Source of the DNA: an uncultured Syntrophobacterales bacterium
GTDB taxonomy: Bacteria; Desulfobacterota; Syntrophia; Syntrophales; UBA5619
Direction of reading: 5' to 3'
Assembly: GCA_903928915.1 (NCBI GenBank)
Contig: CAIYSL010000068.1
Coordinates: 145,005 to 209,004, forward strand
Length of the DNA: 64,000 nucleotides
The notes under the pieces were generated by a model. The model worked only from the letters and a program-made list of their open reading frames with translations. It was not told the DNA's origin and did not search any database. Shown one piece after another: positions 24,720 to 52,680 of the stretch (positions within the stretch are counted from its first letter, which is position 1; every line of letters begins with the position of its first letter). Made by a program: the position numbers and the translations under genes.

Positions 24720-24968
24720 ATGCTGATCCTGACACGGAAGTTGGGAGAATCGATTCAGATCGGCGATGACATCCGGGTTACCTTGCTGGATATCAAGGGC
24801 AAGCAGATTCGAATCGGGATCGAGGCGCCGCGGGAAGTGATGGTTCATCGGGAAGAGGTCTACCGGATGATCCAGGAGCAGAATCTGCAGGCTGCGCACT
24901 TTGCGCTGGCCGTTGCGGAGACGGAGAATCTGGCGGGCGTCTGGGACAGATTGAGCGGGAATCAGTGA
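24720..24968 (+). CDS. csrA: carbon storage regulator CsrA
   Basis: An 82-residue CsrA with the conserved [18 protein letters not shown] start, the [18 protein letters not shown] core, and a longer C-terminal tail than the 61-residue E. coli protein, as is common in non-gamma-proteobacteria. CsrA binds ANGGA motifs in mRNA and blocks translation. It is coupled to fliW and preceded by GAGGAGAG. The fliC leader (51308-51373) carries two plausible binding motifs. Confidence 0.97.
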
Positions 24969-24978
24969 GGCGAACGGT

Positions 24979-25449
24979 ATGAAGTTCCAAACGAAGCGCT
25001 TCGGCGCTATCGACGTGGATGAAACCCGGGTGATCAGGATGAAAGGGGGTATCTTAGGGTTCGAGCATCTGCTGACCTATACCCTCCTGATCCAGGACCC
25101 GCACAATCCGTTGTGGTGGCTGCAGTCTCTGGAGGACGACGGCCTCGCCTTCGTCGTGACGGATCCGCTGGTCATCCGGGCAGACTATCGTCCGGAGATC
25201 CCCAGGGCGGCCCTGGCCTTTCTGGATATCATGCAGGAGGGAGCGCTGTCCCTGCTGGCCATCGTGACGATCCGCTCCCAACCCTTTCGGGTGACGGCAA
25301 ACCTGAGGGCGCCGCTGGTCATCAATGCGGAAACCCGTGTCGGGGGGCAGGTCGTTCTCGATGACGAAACGTACCAGGTCCGTCAGGAGATCATCCCGCC
25401 CACCGCAGCGGAACGGGGGCTGGCCGCGGTATGCGTTGCCGGCCCGTAG
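24979..25449 (+). CDS. fliW: flagellar assembly factor FliW
   Basis: A 156-residue protein with FliW features: FGAIDVDETRVIRMKGGILGFEHL at the start, then LWWLQSLEDDGLAFVVTDPL and NLRAPLVINAETRVGGQVVL. FliW binds either flagellin or CsrA; when flagellin is scarce it releases CsrA inhibition by a partner switch. The gene lies ten bases after csrA, the standard pairing. It is the last gene of the sigma-28 operon. Confidence 0.95.
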   Translation: MKFQTKRFGAIDVDETRVIRMKGGILGFEHLLTYTLLIQDPHNPLWWLQSLEDDGLAFVVTDPLVIRADYRPEIPRAALAFLDIMQEGALSLLAIVTIRSQPFRVTANLRAPLVINAETRVGGQVVLDDETYQVRQEIIPPTAAERGLAAVCVAGP

Positions 25450-38093: not shown

Positions 38094-39765
38094 ACCGAAT
38101 GTGCTGTTCGTCAACCTACCCACCGTTCCCTTCGACGAGATGGTCAAAGGCCTCCGGGAGGAGCAGTACGTTTCCCAGGTGCTGGCGCTGCCGATGGGGA
38201 TCCTGTACCTTTCGGCATACCTCCGGCAGCACAACCCCGTGCGGGGCGAAATCGGCATCCTGGATTACATCCTCGCCATGGAGGGACTGTCCGCGTACCG
38301 GAGCGTCGAAGAGTTCATCCGCGACATCGCCGTCAAGTCGGTGCACTTCCGGCCGGACATCCTGGCCTTCTCGCTGATCTTTTCCACGTCGCATACGGTG
38401 TTCGCCATCACCCTCGGCATCCTGAAATCCCTCTGGCCCGATGCCTGTGTCGTCGTGGGGGGGACGCACGCCACCGCGGCCGCCCTCCCGATCCTGCAGA
38501 ACGATCAGGTCGACTACGTGATCCGGGGAGAGGGGGAGATCGCCTTCTCCGATTTCGTGACCGGGTATGCACGGGGGGAGCGCATCGCGATCAAAGGGGT
38601 ATACTCCCGGCACGATGCCCCCGCGGCGGGAGTGCTGGAAACGACCGATGCCCCCGCCGACCTCGACCTCCTCCCCTACCCGGACTGGCAGCTCGTGGAC
38701 ATGCCGGCCTATTCGGTGAAAAAGGGGAGCCAGCGGGAGTTCGGCGATCGGGAACCGCGCAAGGTCGGTACGATCGTCACGACCAGGGGATGTCCGAACA
38801 AATGCACCTTCTGCGCCGCCCACCTCGTTCACGGCAGGAAGGTGCGGTACCGGTCGGTGGCGAACGTCGTGGACGAGGTGCGGGAGCTCCATCGAACCTT
38901 CGGGATAACCTTGTTCATCCCCGAGGACGACATGTTCACCGTCCCCAAGAAGCGGTTCATCGCCCTGATGAAGGCCCTCCGGGACCTGAACATCCCCGGG
39001 TTCGAGATGCAGAATCAGGACGGCCTTTCCGTCAACACCCTGGACAACGACGTCATCGACGCGATGCTGGGCGCGGGGGTCCGCCTGTTCAATCTCGCCG
39101 TGGAGTCCGGGTCCGAGGACGTGCAGACCCGCCTGATCAAGAAGAACGTCCGGCTGCACCGCGTCCGGGAGATCATCGACTACATCCGGTCCCGGAACAG
39201 CGAGGCGATCGTCCGGTGCTATTTCATCCTGGGGTTCTTCGGCGAGACGAAACAGCAGATGCGGACGACGATCGACTTTGCCAAGGGGACCGGGGCGGAC
39301 TGGTGCCTGTTCAGCATCGCCACCCCGCTGATCGGCACGGAGATGCATCGCCAGATGCTCGCGGCGGGGCTGATCGAGGACAACATCGATTACTGGGTGC
39401 GGGCGTCCTTCGGCCAGCGCTGCTTCGATACCCCCGAGATCTCGGCGGCGGAGCTGACCGAACTTTCCTATGGGGCGAACCTCGAGGTGAATTTCTTCGG
39501 CAACGTCAACATGGCGAACGGGAATTACTCCAAGGCCCTGGGGATCTTCAGCGATATCGTCCGGCTGTACCCCTTCCACATCGTCGCGTGGTACTGCATC
39601 ATGGAATGCCACGCCGGGCTGCGGGATCGGCAAAAGGCAGCGGAGGTCCGGCGGAAACTGGATGAGCTCGTCCGCAGGGATGCGCGCTCGGCGGAGATGT
39701 TTCGGAAATACGGCCGTCTGATGCCCAGCATCGCCCGGTCGGAGCGGGAGGTATCGGCAGCGTGA
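38083..39765 (+). CDS. radical SAM enzyme with B12-binding-like domain and C-terminal helical repeats (second of three)
   Basis: A 560-residue protein. The N-terminal third is a cobalamin-binding-like fold (VVVGGTHATAAALPIL, VIRGEGEIAFSDFV). The cluster motif is Cys237-xxx-Cys241-xx-Cys244 (TTRGCPNKCTFC). After the radical SAM barrel a helical tail (residues about 470-540) has a TPR-like unit (NYSKALGIFSDIVRLYPFHIVAWY). It may act on the sugar or its carrier. It overlaps pseI by four bases. Confidence 0.85.
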   Translation: MRTEPNVLFVNLPTVPFDEMVKGLREEQYVSQVLALPMGILYLSAYLRQHNPVRGEIGILDYILAMEGLSAYRSVEEFIRDIAVKSVHFRPDILAFSLIFSTSHTVFAITLGILKSLWPDACVVVGGTHATAAALPILQNDQVDYVIRGEGEIAFSDFVTGYARGERIAIKGVYSRHDAPAAGVLETTDAPADLDLLPYPDWQLVDMPAYSVKKGSQREFGDREPRKVGTIVTTRGCPNKCTFCAAHLVHGRKVRYRSVANVVDEVRELHRTFGITLFIPEDDMFTVPKKRFIALMKALRDLNIPGFEMQNQDGLSVNTLDNDVIDAMLGAGVRLFNLAVESGSEDVQTRLIKKNVRLHRVREIIDYIRSRNSEAIVRCYFILGFFGETKQQMRTTIDFAKGTGADWCLFSIATPLIGTEMHRQMLAAGLIEDNIDYWVRASFGQRCFDTPEISAAELTELSYGANLEVNFFGNVNMANGNYSKALGIFSDIVRLYPFHIVAWYCIMECHAGLRDRQKAAEVRRKLDELVRRDARSAEMFRKYGRLMPSIARSEREVSAA

Positions 39766-40841
39766 AATTCGAAATCGCACAGAGACCGATCGGGGGGGAC
39801 GCCCCCGTCTTCATCGTCGCCGAGCTCTCCTGCAACCATCAGCAGGACTTCTCCCTGGCGGTGAAGACGATCCGGGCGATGAAGGAGGCCGGGGCCGATG
39901 CGGTAAAGCTCTCGACCGACTGGAACGACGGCGGGATAACCATCGATTGCGACAACCGGTACTTCCGTATCGGCGAGGGGACGATCTGGGACGGGAAGAC
40001 CCTGTTCGAGCTGTACGAGGAGGCCTTTACCCCCTGGGAATGGCAACCGAAGCTGAAGTCCCTGATCGAGGAGCTCGGGATGGTCTGTTTTTCCACCGCC
40101 ACCGACACCACGGCCGTCGACTTCCTGGAGGGTATCGACATCCCCTGTTATAAGATCGCCTCCTTCGAGATCAATGATCTGCCGTTGATCGAGTACGCGG
40201 CTGCGAAGGGAAAGCCGATGATCATTTCCACCGGCGTGGCGACACTGTCCGATATCGAAGCGGCGGTGCACGCCTGCCGGAAGGCGGGCAACCACCGCAT
40301 CGCGCTGCTCAAGGCGACCTCGGCCTATCCGACCCCCTTCCGGGAGATCAACCTGCGGACCATCCCCCACCTGCGGAGCCTGTGCGGCACCGTCGTGGGG
40401 CTGTCCGACCACAGCCTGGGCACGTCGGTGGCGGTCGCGGCGGTCGCCCTGGGGGCGAAGGTGGTGGAGAAGCATTTCATCCTGGAGAGGGCGCTGGGGG
40501 GGCCCGACGCCGCCTTTTCGATGGAGCCCCAGGAGTTCCGCCAGATGGTGCAATCGATCCGGGAGGTGGAGCAGGCCCTGGGCGCGGTGTCCTACGAGAT
40601 ACCGGAAGGGGTCCGCAGGAATCGGAGGTTCATGAAATCCCTGTTTGCCATCCGGGACATCGCGGCGGGGGAGGAATTCACCGGGGAAAACATCCGTTCT
40701 ATCCGGCCCGGGGATGGACTTCCGCCCGGATTTTTTCCCACGCTGGTGGGGAAGAAGGCGAACCGCCCCATCCGCAGGGGGACCCCCTTGACGTGGGAAC
40801 TCCTCCTGGGGGCGTCAACGCCAGAAAGGTGCGAAGGTTGA
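39762..40841 (+). CDS. pseI: nonulosonic acid synthase, pseudaminic-acid type (PseI/NeuB)
   Basis: A 359-residue NeuB-family protein. The TIM-barrel part has VAELSCNHQQDFSLAVKTI, DAVKLSTDWND, IASFEINDLPLI, and GLSDHSLGTSVAVAAVALGAKVVEKHFIL. A C-terminal SAF antifreeze-like domain follows (SLFAIRDIAAGEEFTGENIRSIRPGDGL). It condenses phosphoenolpyruvate with the 6-carbon sugar to give the 9-carbon acid. PseB, PseC and PseG in the same operon favour pseudaminic over legionaminic acid, though the exact sugar is inferred. GTG start; overlaps the previous gene. Confidence 0.9.
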   Translation: MKFEIAQRPIGGDAPVFIVAELSCNHQQDFSLAVKTIRAMKEAGADAVKLSTDWNDGGITIDCDNRYFRIGEGTIWDGKTLFELYEEAFTPWEWQPKLKSLIEELGMVCFSTATDTTAVDFLEGIDIPCYKIASFEINDLPLIEYAAAKGKPMIISTGVATLSDIEAAVHACRKAGNHRIALLKATSAYPTPFREINLRTIPHLRSLCGTVVGLSDHSLGTSVAVAAVALGAKVVEKHFILERALGGPDAAFSMEPQEFRQMVQSIREVEQALGAVSYEIPEGVRRNRRFMKSLFAIRDIAAGEEFTGENIRSIRPGDGLPPGFFPTLVGKKANRPIRRGTPLTWELLLGASTPERCEG

Positions 40842-47118: not shown

Positions 47119-49044
47119 ATGATACAGGGAGAGACCATGCGATCATCGGTGTTCGAAAAGAACATGCAGGCCCTGGAGACTCGATATCCCGAGCTTTTCC
47201 GGCAGGTCTGCACAACGGGCGCTGCAGGTCCGGCGACCATCGTCCGCACTGGGGCCGCGGATGCCGCAGTGAATCTCCTCTCTCCGGATGATCGGGGGGG
47301 CTGCCTCTGGTATGACAACGAGGACCCGCTGGGCTACTGCCGCCGGTATATTCGTTCCCTCGACCTCGGGTACGCCCCGGTCGTCATTTTTTTGGGTTTC
47401 GGCCTCGGGTACCAGGTCCAGAGTGCCCTGCAGGATTTTTCGCAGCAGCTTTGCATCCAGCATATCGTCATCATAGAAAAGGATCTCACCGTCTTTCGCG
47501 CCGCATTGCAGTACCACGATTTCAGCCGGATCATCACGCATCCGGCAATCCATCTGTTCGTCGGCTGTTCGGCCAGCGAGCTGTTCTTCGCGCTCCGGAC
47601 CCATTTCGTGAACCACCCGTCGGTGCTGGAGTATGCGCGGAATCTGAAATTCATCGCCCTGCCGGCCCTACACCGGTTCGAGCCCTCCTATTACGGCGAG
47701 GCATATCGGTGCGTAAAGGACGCCACGCTCCACATTCTCCAGCACATGGGAAACGATCCCTACGACGCCCTCCTCGGGATCCGCCAGACGGTCGCAAACC
47801 TCCGCCCGCTGATCGAAGACCCGGGGATTGCCGCCTTCCGCGGCTGCTTCCGGGCAAAGCCCGGCATCGTGATCGGCGCCGGTCCCTCGCTGAACAAGAA
47901 TATCCACCTGCTCAGGGAGGCGGCCGACAAGGCGGTCCTGATCGCGGTGGACGCGGCCCTGAAGCCGCTGCTGAACGCCGGAGTTCGGCCCCATCTGGTC
48001 ACGAATATCGAACGGACCGCCGGCGTGAACGCCTTCTTCTTGAACCTGGGTCGACAGGAGGAGATCTTCTTCGTCTTCTCCCCCGTAGCGGCCCCCGGGA
48101 CGTACGCCGCCTTCGACGGGCCGAAGATCATCGCCCACCGGTACGAGAAGCTGATGCAGTGGCTCGCCCTACCCAAAGGAGCGCTCACCGGCGGCCCGCT
48201 CGTCTGCAACTTTGCCTTCGATATGGCTCAGTACCTGGGGTGCGATCCGATCATCCTGGTCGGACAGGATCTGTCGTTCACCCCCAGCGGGGCGACGCAC
48301 GCCAGCGGCAACGTGTTCGGACAGATCGACGAGTACAAGAGAGATACCCGGGAGGTCGAAGGCAACTATCAGGAACGGCTTCTGACAACGCCATCCTTCG
48401 AGGAGGGCAGAAAATCGCTGGAAGTTCAGGTGCGGCACTATCCGGGTGTCTGCATCAATGCCACCGAAGGCGGCGCCAGGATCAACGGGTGCCGCTTCGT
48501 GAGCCTGAGGCGGTCGATCGACGCCTATTGCCGGGTCGGGGTCGACGCCGTGAGTATCCTGAAACGGATCTGGACTGCCGAGAAGTCGTGTCAGCAGGAC
48601 GTATCCGGCGAGCTGAGGCGAGCAGGTGCGCTCATCGATCAATCGCTTGCCGAGATGGACGCGGCGCTGGACGATTGCCGGAGGGGGCTGGATATGATCG
48701 ACGCCTTTCTGCGCAGCAATCCTCTCACCTCGGGCGACGGACCCGACCCGAATGTGGCGGCGGCGATCCGCGCGCTCACCGGAGAACTGAATGAGATACG
48801 CGGACGGGTGATCGCCCTCCCCTCGTTTGCGGTGTTCGAGATGGTCATCCAGGGCTACCACTTCGACCTCGAGATGCGCCGCAACATGGCCCATGAGCAG
48901 TTTCGCCGGCGGGAGTTCGCCGAGTCGAAGTCCTTTCTGCTGCTGAAGGAATGGTTCGCCACGGTCGGCCAGCTCATCCTGTCGACACGGTTTGCCATCG
49001 AACGGGCACGGTCGGCCGCAATGGCGGAGGCGGGGTGCGCATGA
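47119..49044 (+). CDS. maf: motility accessory factor (Maf) flagellin glycosyltransferase
   Basis: A 641-residue Maf protein. The central DUF115-type domain is clear: PGIVIGAGPSLNKNIHLL, VDAALKPLLNAGVRPHLVTNIE, then GGPLVCNFAFDMAQYLGCDPIILVGQDLSF. The N-terminal part (VVIFLGFGLGYQVQSAL) and a helical C-terminal domain match the family. Maf enzymes attach pseudaminic or legionaminic acid to Ser/Thr of flagellin. The start may be ATG 47119 or 47137. It is the best evidence that the island serves flagellin, whose gene lies 2.3 kb downstream. Confidence 0.92.
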   Translation: MIQGETMRSSVFEKNMQALETRYPELFRQVCTTGAAGPATIVRTGAADAAVNLLSPDDRGGCLWYDNEDPLGYCRRYIRSLDLGYAPVVIFLGFGLGYQVQSALQDFSQQLCIQHIVIIEKDLTVFRAALQYHDFSRIITHPAIHLFVGCSASELFFALRTHFVNHPSVLEYARNLKFIALPALHRFEPSYYGEAYRCVKDATLHILQHMGNDPYDALLGIRQTVANLRPLIEDPGIAAFRGCFRAKPGIVIGAGPSLNKNIHLLREAADKAVLIAVDAALKPLLNAGVRPHLVTNIERTAGVNAFFLNLGRQEEIFFVFSPVAAPGTYAAFDGPKIIAHRYEKLMQWLALPKGALTGGPLVCNFAFDMAQYLGCDPIILVGQDLSFTPSGATHASGNVFGQIDEYKRDTREVEGNYQERLLTTPSFEEGRKSLEVQVRHYPGVCINATEGGARINGCRFVSLRRSIDAYCRVGVDAVSILKRIWTAEKSCQQDVSGELRRAGALIDQSLAEMDAALDDCRRGLDMIDAFLRSNPLTSGDGPDPNVAAAIRALTGELNEIRGRVIALPSFAVFEMVIQGYHFDLEMRRNMAHEQFRRREFAESKSFLLLKEWFATVGQLILSTRFAIERARSAAMAEAGCA

Positions 49045-51198: not shown

Positions 51199-51226
51199 TA
51201 AAGCAAACCCCCCTGCCTGCCGATAA
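51199..51226 (+). promoter_or_regulatory. sigma-28 promoter for fliC
   Basis: TAAA at 51199-51202, a 16-base spacer and a perfect GCCGATAA at 51219-51226. It is the best sigma-28 match in the window. Start of transcription near 51233 would give a leader of about 150 bases before fliC, unusually long and holding the CsrA-type motifs. Confidence 0.92.
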
Positions 51227-51307
51227 TGTGTTCAAAGGCCGGAACGATCCAATACGCGGGGGAAGGAGGGGATGAGCAAAACGGGCCGCACCGGGGATCA
51301 CGGGCCG

Positions 51308-51373
51308 GCGGGCAGGGAAGCCCGCATGCTGTTCGCCGAATGACCGGCGACACTCACACACAAAATCAAGGAG
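51308..51373 (+). promoter_or_regulatory. candidate CsrA binding region in the fliC leader
   Basis: Site one is a hairpin with stem GCGGGC/GCCCGC (51308-51313 and 51320-51325) and a six-base loop AGGGAA, the ANGGAN form preferred by CsrA. Site two is AAGGAG at 51368-51373, which is also the fliC ribosome binding site. They are about 54 bases apart. The same pairing of an upstream hairpin site with one on the ribosome binding site is known for Bacillus subtilis hag. Confidence 0.6.
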
Positions 51374-51384
51374 GATGACATACC

Positions 51385-52491
51385 ATGGGATTAAGAATTC
51401 AGAACAACATCGCGGCAATGAACGCTCATCGGAACCTGACGATCGCGGACGGCGGGATGAGCAAATCACTGGAAAGACTCTCTTCGGGTTACCGGATCAA
51501 CAAGGCGTCGGATGACGCGGCGGGCCTGGCCGTTTCTTCGGGAATGCGGGCCGACATCGCCAGCTATAAGGTGGCGTCGCGGAACACCTCCGAAGCCATC
51601 GCCCTGCTGCAGGTGGCCGAAGGCGCCTACGACCAGATCAGCAATATCCTGACCCGGTTGAAGGAACTGACGACCCAGGGCACCTCGGCGAACGCCTCGG
51701 GAAACACGGCCGACATCAGCAACGAAGTCACGGCCCTCAAGGCCGAACTCGACCGGATCGCCAACGCCACGGAGTACAGCGGCCAGACCGTTCTGCGCGG
51801 CTATGGCTCCGCGGTGCAGGCCTATGGCGCCGGCATCGACTCCACTGCCGAGCGGGATGCGATGGGTCTGACGAGCATCTCGGCAAGCGGCGTGACCGAC
51901 AACGTCACCTACACGATCACCGCCACCTCCTTGAACGTGATCACGGTTACCAACGGCACTACGAGTGCTACCGAGTCCAAGACGCTCACCGGCGACGGCG
52001 CCCAGACGATCAATTTCCAGTCCATGGGGATCACCCTGAACATGGGGTCGCTCTTCGTCAGGACGGCGGTCGCCCTGAACGGCCAGACCCTGGTGTTCAC
52101 CGTGGCCGGCGGGAATTTCGTCACCGGCATCAAGAATGACGCGAACCACTACATTAACGTCGGGATCGACAAGGTCTCCTCGGCGGATCTGTCCCTCACG
52201 GGCGTGACCGGGACGGTGTTGGCCGACCTCGACACGATCAACACCGCCATCGAGACGCTGGCAGGCAGCCGCGCCGAGATCGGCGCCGCCATGAACCGCC
52301 TCGGGTACGCCGCGGCGAACCTGGCCTCGTCGATCGAGAACGTGCAGGCGGCCGAGTCGGTCATCCGCGACGTGGATATGGCGGCGGAAATGACCACCTT
52401 CACCAAGAACCAGATCCTGCTCCAGGCGGGTACGGCCATGCTGGCTCAGGCGAATATGGCTCCGCAGGGCGTCCTGTCGCTCCTCAAATAA
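51385..52491 (+). CDS. fliC: flagellin FliC
   Basis: A 368-residue flagellin. The N-terminal D0/D1 helices are canonical (LRIQNNIAAMNAHRNLTIAD, LERLSSGYRINKASDDAAG) and so is the C-terminus (ASSIENVQAAESVIRDVDMA, then FTKNQILLQAGTAMLAQAN). The variable middle, about residues 145-265, is small and rich in Ser and Thr, which suits O-glycosylation by the Maf enzyme encoded upstream. A GGAGGATGACATACC spacer places the ribosome binding site under possible CsrA control. It is the only flagellin gene in the window. Confidence 0.98.
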   Translation: MGLRIQNNIAAMNAHRNLTIADGGMSKSLERLSSGYRINKASDDAAGLAVSSGMRADIASYKVASRNTSEAIALLQVAEGAYDQISNILTRLKELTTQGTSANASGNTADISNEVTALKAELDRIANATEYSGQTVLRGYGSAVQAYGAGIDSTAERDAMGLTSISASGVTDNVTYTITATSLNVITVTNGTTSATESKTLTGDGAQTINFQSMGITLNMGSLFVRTAVALNGQTLVFTVAGGNFVTGIKNDANHYINVGIDKVSSADLSLTGVTGTVLADLDTINTAIETLAGSRAEIGAAMNRLGYAAANLASSIENVQAAESVIRDVDMAAEMTTFTKNQILLQAGTAMLAQANMAPQGVLSLLK

Positions 52492-52562: not shown

Positions 52563-52652
52563 ACCCGCGGTCCGGCCCGAACGGCAGGATCCGCGGCGGT
52601 TGGACGGGTTGGCCGACATTTTGCTCATCCTACTGGCAGACGGGCTGATTGC

Positions 52653-52680
52653 TCAAGTTCCGGGTATTTTTTTCCGATAG
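52653..52680 (+). promoter_or_regulatory. sigma-28-type promoter for fliD
   Basis: TCAA at 52653-52656, a 16-base spacer and TCCGATAG at 52673-52680. It differs from the fliC site in one base of the -35 core and two of the -10. It lies 58 bases before the fliD ATG at 52739, which also argues against the earlier in-frame TTG at 52649. Confidence 0.72.

Follow-up and report, generated by a model that had tools for sequence, protein, structure and literature searches.

A putative FliW-CsrA flagellin leader with a conserved Shine-Dalgarno-like element near its predicted 5' end in Syntrophales and other flagellated bacteria

Organization of the fliC locus

The DNA stretch analyzed in this work, referred to as the window, comprises 64,000 nt from an uncultured Syntrophobacterales bacterium. 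It contains the fliC gene for a flagellin of 368 aa (51385..52491, forward strand) and the leader that governs this gene. The sigma-28 promoter of fliC (51199..51226, forward strand), recognized by its sequence and common to nearly all related fliC leaders, consists of the -35 element TAAAG at 51199-51203 and the -10 box GCCGATAA at 51219-51226. Transcription is predicted to start near 51233, and the leader, counted from this predicted start, is approximately 150 nt long. TAAA and GCCGATAA are separated by 16 nt, which is typical of the order among the leaders read, whereas the E. coli sigma-28 consensus has a spacing of N15. The initial annotation of this DNA described the promoter as perfect; the promoter itself stands, but the adjective is slightly generous because the spacing exceeds the E. 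coli consensus by one nucleotide. Another sigma-28-type promoter, TCAAG ... CCGATA, is located at 52652-52678 ahead of fliD.

The csrA gene (24720..24968, forward strand) encodes a protein of 82 aa with a C-terminal extension, in which the RNA-contact residues L4 and R44 are present. It adjoins fliW (24979..25449, forward strand; 156 aa), whose product matches the FliW chain of the FliW-CsrA complex 5dmb, in the block flgJ/flgM-flgK-flgL-csrA-fliW, and both genes are single copies genome-wide (4.34 Mb assembly, 141 contigs). The pair had been placed in the same cluster as fliC; the two genes are indeed adjacent in a flagellar block, but a stretch of 26 kb containing many other genes separates this block from fliC, which lies downstream of it. 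The intervening approximately 25 kb (25450-51067) include genes for radical-SAM and TPR proteins, a Maf-type flagellin glycosyltransferase (47119-49044) and a NeuB/PseI-like synthase (39762-40841; this one assigned by sequence only). Their presence suggests that an island for flagellin glycosylation has been inserted into the flagellar cluster.

For comparative analysis, we searched 120 relatives belonging to the organism's genus, family or order. The closest flagellins among named relatives belong to Syntrophales/Syntrophus and other Desulfobacterota, and several of these relatives are represented by the same contigs as the same-order genomes already searched. The comparison covered 28 flagellin leaders of the order and a further 65, free of duplicates, from wider taxa (Desulfobacterota, Scalindua, Nitrospirota, KSB1, Actinomycetota, Bacillota and others); these and the following leader counts ignore shared ancestry, the sequences being related by descent and hence not independent events. 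A scan against 4227 Rfam models gave no family match and two chance-level matches only.

CsrA-type sites and their conservation

The upstream CsrA-type site is a hairpin (51308..51325, forward strand) with a 6-bp stem and the hexaloop AGGGAA (51314-51319), reading exactly GCGGGC-AGGGAA-GCCCGC, the loop of which fits the ANGGAN motif. The predicted minimum-free-energy (MFE) fold of the window includes this hairpin, and among 20,000 dinucleotide shuffles of the window leader a hairpin with an ANGGAN hexaloop and six or more stem pairs appears in 0.09% (p=0.0009). Such a hairpin, with four or more stem pairs, occurs in 23/28 leaders of the order and in 50 of the 65 wider leaders, against 0.7 and 1.4, respectively, expected from shuffles.

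Covariation was assessed at sites anchored on CANGGA[ACT]G only, with the outer pairs counted afterwards, which avoids selection by the stem; the loop A, G, G and A are invariant in the 75 distinct sequences because they were used as the anchor. Exactly one such site is present in 76/93 leaders. Stem pairs 2-6 are formed in 75, 74, 65, 51 and 42 of the 75 sequences, compared to 59, 52, 30, 32 and 28 expected with partners shuffled, and pairs 7-8 show no clear excess over shuffled partners in the same set. Therefore, the stem is approximately 6 bp long, as in the window. Compensatory changes in the stem span several phyla (75 distinct sites, shared ancestry being ignored in the counts). The ANGGAN hexaloop on a 6-bp stem reported by the initial annotation is exact in sequence and present in the MFE fold, and the check it had proposed, conservation and covariation of the hairpin with the loop GGA, bears it out in that the unselected stem pairs covary among the 75 distinct leaders.

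A genome-wide pattern combining the hairpin with CAAGGAG gave 20 matches in 27 genomes, 16 of them at flagellin genes. In the relative G056 (L127, 1501-1580), the fliD gene is preceded by a sigma-28 promoter and, immediately ahead of its Shine-Dalgarno (SD) sequence, by a GGGC-AGGGAAT-GCCC hairpin, and this fliD is a likely candidate for a second CsrA target.

The downstream CsrA-type site (51365..51376, forward strand), assigned by sequence and by covariation in relatives, is an ATC-AAGGAG-GAT mini-hairpin on the SD of fliC, in which AAGGAG at 51368-51373 fits ANGGAN inside a 3-bp ATC/GAT stem. The motif match alone is trivial, because any AAGGAG SD fits ANGGAN. The flanking stem, missing from the initial annotation, is marginal in the window, and the small hairpin is absent from the window's predicted MFE fold; among the relatives, pair 3 of the SD hexaloop hairpin switches between A-T and T-A and is paired in 67/72 cases versus 46 by shuffling. 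The earlier placement of an ANGGAN motif on the ribosome binding site is exact, and the stem around it covaries in relatives. The hairpin and the SD are separated by 48 nt in the window, and the gap between the hairpin loop and the SD is within the reported CsrA bridging range of 10-63 nt (PMC7652899) in 57/73 leaders. Four leaders from KSB1 and similar genomes (L066, L067, L071, L085) have the SD hexaloop only, of the AATC-ATGGAG-GATT type, with no upstream hairpin, and FliW is present in 3/4 of their genomes; they are perhaps a one-site variant.

FliW was found in 70/78 genomes with these flagellins, and the hairpin tracks FliW, being present in 65/70 genomes with FliW versus 4/8 without (Fisher p=0.005), where some of the eight FliW-negative calls may stem from incomplete genomes. 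The four genomes with neither a FliW match nor the hairpin include a gammaproteobacterium and Methyloversatilis. That the hairpin and the GGA motifs are incidental and fliC lies outside CsrA control, as the triviality of the ANGGAN match on the SD would allow, is hardly credible in view of the rarity of the hairpin in leader shuffles, the strong covariation and the FliW co-occurrence. The earlier reading, that the amount of flagellin is under the FliW-CsrA switch, is supported at the sequence level by conservation, covariation and FliW co-occurrence.

A ghost Shine-Dalgarno element upstream of the CsrA-type sites

The initial annotation likened the leader to the two-site design of B. subtilis hag. 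Both sites stand. The description is nevertheless incomplete, as it misses a further conserved element, the third, located upstream of both. This SD-like element, here called the ghost SD (GGAAGGAGGGGA, consensus GAAAGGAGGTGA; 51261..51272, forward strand), coincides with a third ANGGAN of the window leader, at 51263, also missing from the earlier list. The window copy is a weaker one, matching the 10-nt consensus at 9/10 positions. Its AAGGAGG core begins 37 nt past the -10 box, and an ATG located 2 nt past GGAGG is the start of a 23-codon frame (51272-51343), which lacks conservation. Nearly all Syntrophales leaders contain a AAAGGAGGTGA-like sequence 100-160 nt ahead of the start codon, and at least 7 consecutive nucleotides of AAGGAGGTGA are found in 25/28 order leaders versus 1.3 in shuffles.

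The distance from the -10 box to the ghost SD has a median of 29 nt with an interquartile range of 5 in 22 order leaders; the distance from the ghost SD to the ATG is 102-159 nt in the same 22 leaders and 76-220 nt over 46 leaders. Across these 46, leader length correlates with the ghost-to-ATG distance at a rho of 0.94, versus 0.59 for the distance from the -10 box to the ghost. The position of the ghost SD is set by the promoter and not by the gene. In Scalindua, the distance from the -10 box is nearly fixed but longer (50-55 nt). In four Syntrophus-like leaders (L005, L012, L015, L018), a sigma-54-type site, TGGCAY-N5-TYGC, is located 21-24 nt before the ghost SD, as though the element kept to the 5' end regardless of the promoter in use. 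These long fliC leaders have a distal sigma-28 promoter in addition to the proximal sigma-54-type site before the ghost SD, which suggests dual promoters.

The predicted duplex with the 16S rRNA tail has a mean energy of -18.3 kcal/mol for the ghost SD versus -11.3 kcal/mol for the true SD, and the ghost pairs more strongly in 60/60 leaders, in both cases with ghost sites that had been chosen for SD likeness. A G at position -2 of the ghost, which was not selected for, is present in 50/60 sites and lengthens the pairing into the 16S tail TGGATCACCTCCTTTCT. This tail was found in one member of the order and in one Scalindua; the organism's own 16S tail was not found in this genome's assembly. 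The predicted accessibility of the ghost SD, 0.49, does not exceed the leader average of 0.52; in the window it is 0.87.

The strong 16S complementarity within the same leader would suit a ribosome standby or loading site feeding 30S subunits to the true SD once CsrA leaves. This role is improbable: the ghost-to-SD distance varies from approximately 60 to 205 nt and the promoter distance is nearly fixed within the order, a combination that a 5'-end function fits better than feeding. Translation of a leader peptide or mini-ORF from the ghost SD is very improbable. The window ATG does open a frame running through the hairpin, and a mini-ORF ribosome-binding site reportedly shields an mRNA of E. 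coli against RNase E (Lodato et al. 2012, cited in PMC3997798). However, a start codon 4-10 nt past the ghost SD, a property not selected for, is found in 6/60 leaders versus 27% expected (p=0.001), and the frames that do occur span 1-21 codons and lack conservation. This depletion of start codons at usable spacing led us to reject the leader-peptide reading for the family.

Specificity for flagellin genes was assessed in 395 genomes of the phylum with a pattern consisting of a sigma-28 promoter, N14-44 and AAGGAGGTGA, in which a flagellin gene was not required. It gave 20 matches in 18/395 genomes, and the reversed pattern gave none. Among the 19 loci read, 17 precede a flagellin gene, one a Flp-type pilin gene and one nothing recognisable. 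Flagellin loci totalling 0.86 Mb contain 33 copies of the exact 10-mer, one per locus. Hence the ghost SD is nearly flagellin-specific in Desulfobacterota. The possibility that it is common to all sigma-28 genes was rejected, the non-flagellin matches in the order being ordinary SDs (start codon at 3-9 nt) or chance. In a search of 299 Bacillota genomes, two matches were obtained, each before an ORF starting 4 nt later, one of them with ATG; these look like ordinary SDs, and the ghost SD was unseen in most of the Bacillota leaders read. A literature search covering few subscription papers turned up no flagellin leader described as having an SD-like site upstream.

The element could alternatively be a third, 5'-end CsrA site, at which bound CsrA blocks RNase E or assists CsrA loading onto the leader. 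CsrA could bind there, since 45/60 ghost sites fit ANGGA (GGA is present in 52/60), and the 5'-proximal CsrA sites of E. coli flhDC are known to block RNase E (PMC7652899). Against this, many leaders have G in place of the A before GGA, or GGG, with the 16S pairing kept; the conserved UGA downstream and the G upstream are needed for 16S pairing and not for CsrA; and a flanking hexaloop stem is lacking (stem length 0 in nearly all). Moreover, the flagellin leaders L154 and L155 (family f69) and L165 carry the ghost SD without the CsrA hexaloop hairpin, so that the two elements are separable. CsrA protection of the flhDC kind is rather unlikely, and it is the main rival to a 30S subunit clamped at the ghost SD.

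Comparison with known flagellin leaders

The flaA leader of C. jejuni contains two ANGGA stem-loops, with SL2 on the ribosome binding site, analyzed by footprinting and compensatory changes, and FliW antagonism was demonstrated (PMC4894983). The window leader is similar in its two ANGGA loops, the second on the ribosome binding site, the compensatory changes among its relatives, its sigma-28 promoter, its Gram-negative host and the presence of fliW. It differs in its length (approximately 150 nt versus 45 nt for flaA), in the adjacency of csrA and fliW and in the ghost SD, no upstream counterpart of which has been reported for flaA. The earlier emphasis on a Gram-negative species is correct as to the species, but the novelty is weaker, because flaA already has the same two-stem-loop layout. 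B. subtilis hag also has two CsrA sites (BS1 and BS2; Yakhnin 2007 as cited in PMC8523840 and PMC7652899), one of them on the SD, and adjacent csrA and fliW genes; it differs in the phylum and in an intersite distance shorter than here. For G. sulfurreducens, from the same phylum-level group and with csrA and fliW present, a 2026 study deals with CsrA-FliW in biofilm formation and proposes that FliW antagonises CsrA; it leaves FliC's role and direct binding to mRNA open, and a text search of it found no mention of the flagellin leader (PMC13407953).

The features expected of a FliW-CsrA leader, namely ANGGA in a hairpin loop, a stem-loop at the SD site, a CsrA with L4/R44 and fliW in the genome, were all found here. 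By analogy with the characterized systems, CsrA binding, FliW antagonism and flagellin feedback very probably operate at this leader. The CsrA part is a further member of the known FliW-CsrA switch and no surprise; the comparison extends this switch, with covariation, to a broad set of flagellates, among them Desulfobacterota and Planctomycetota, in which it had not previously been elucidated. It also exposes, at the sequence level, a conserved putative ribosome-binding element without a gene, found across the phylum.

A proposed model for silencing and storage of flagellin mRNA

A FliW-CsrA flagellin switch combined with a 5' ghost SD that protects the silenced mRNA is, in our judgment, a probable explanation of the leader as a whole. 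The CsrA dimer would most likely bridge the upstream hexaloop hairpin, serving as a high-affinity anchor, and the SD hexaloop approximately 48 nt away, and in this state would block ribosome entry at fliC. FliW would free the mRNA of CsrA once flagellin is exported and no longer bound to FliW. The ghost SD near the 5' end, itself without a start codon, may hold a 30S subunit that shields the CsrA-silenced, ribosome-free mRNA from decay initiated at the 5' end, mainly by RNase E in the order, and the shielded flagellin mRNA would stay ready for release.

The clamp builds on the start-less nature of the element, its near-maximal 16S complementarity and its location, usually approximately 20-30 nt from the mRNA start. 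We propose that the ghost SD may bind 30S subunits and stabilise the mRNA, to which we assign close to, though short of, an even chance. In C. jejuni, strong CsrA repression in a fliW deletion is accompanied by reduced stability of flaA mRNA (PMC4894983), which is the problem that such a clamp would solve.

A parallel is provided by STAB-SD of B. thuringiensis cry3A, a 5'-end stabiliser (Agaisse and Lereclus 1996, described in PMC4113751). STAB-SD is likewise SD-like, near the 5' end, non-translating and able to pair with the 16S 3' end, but is known from Gram-positive bacteria containing RNase J1, whereas the ghost SD belongs to flagellin mRNAs of Desulfobacterota and Planctomycetota and is coupled to a CsrA leader. 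The location near the 5' end, as predicted from the promoter, and the 16S complementarity agree with this parallel, as does the scarcity of start codons (6/60), although the window ATG at 2-nt spacing leaves doubt. A block of RNase J does not: RNase J is absent from the organism's own genome, and none was above the cut-off in 24/24 Syntrophales genomes tested. RNase J was accordingly rejected as the blocked nuclease for Syntrophales, and the ghost SD is not a strict STAB-SD, working only like one. With RNase J absent, protection, if any, must be directed against a different nuclease, and RNase E is proposed; RNase E/G is present in 44/45 genomes. Protection against RNase E has precedents in the mini-ORF ribosome-binding site and in the flhDC CsrA sites cited above. 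The generalization that a dedicated 5' ribosome clamp, countering an RNase E-type pathway and not RNase J, is a feature of flagellin mRNAs in Desulfobacterota and Scalindua is tentative and somewhat doubtful.

If the clamp is real, one leader would combine two separate, paired functions, silencing of the mRNA and its storage, and protection of the silenced mRNA would explain how large amounts of untranslated flagellin mRNA can be held. It would also represent broadly conserved, natural STAB-SD-like protection outside Gram-positive bacteria. At one locus (L159, genome G247), a sigma-28-like promoter and AAGGAGGTGA, with no start codon, are located approximately 90 nt upstream of a Flp pilin-like gene; this copy, ahead of another abundant filament protein, may have arisen by chance or point to broader use of the element.
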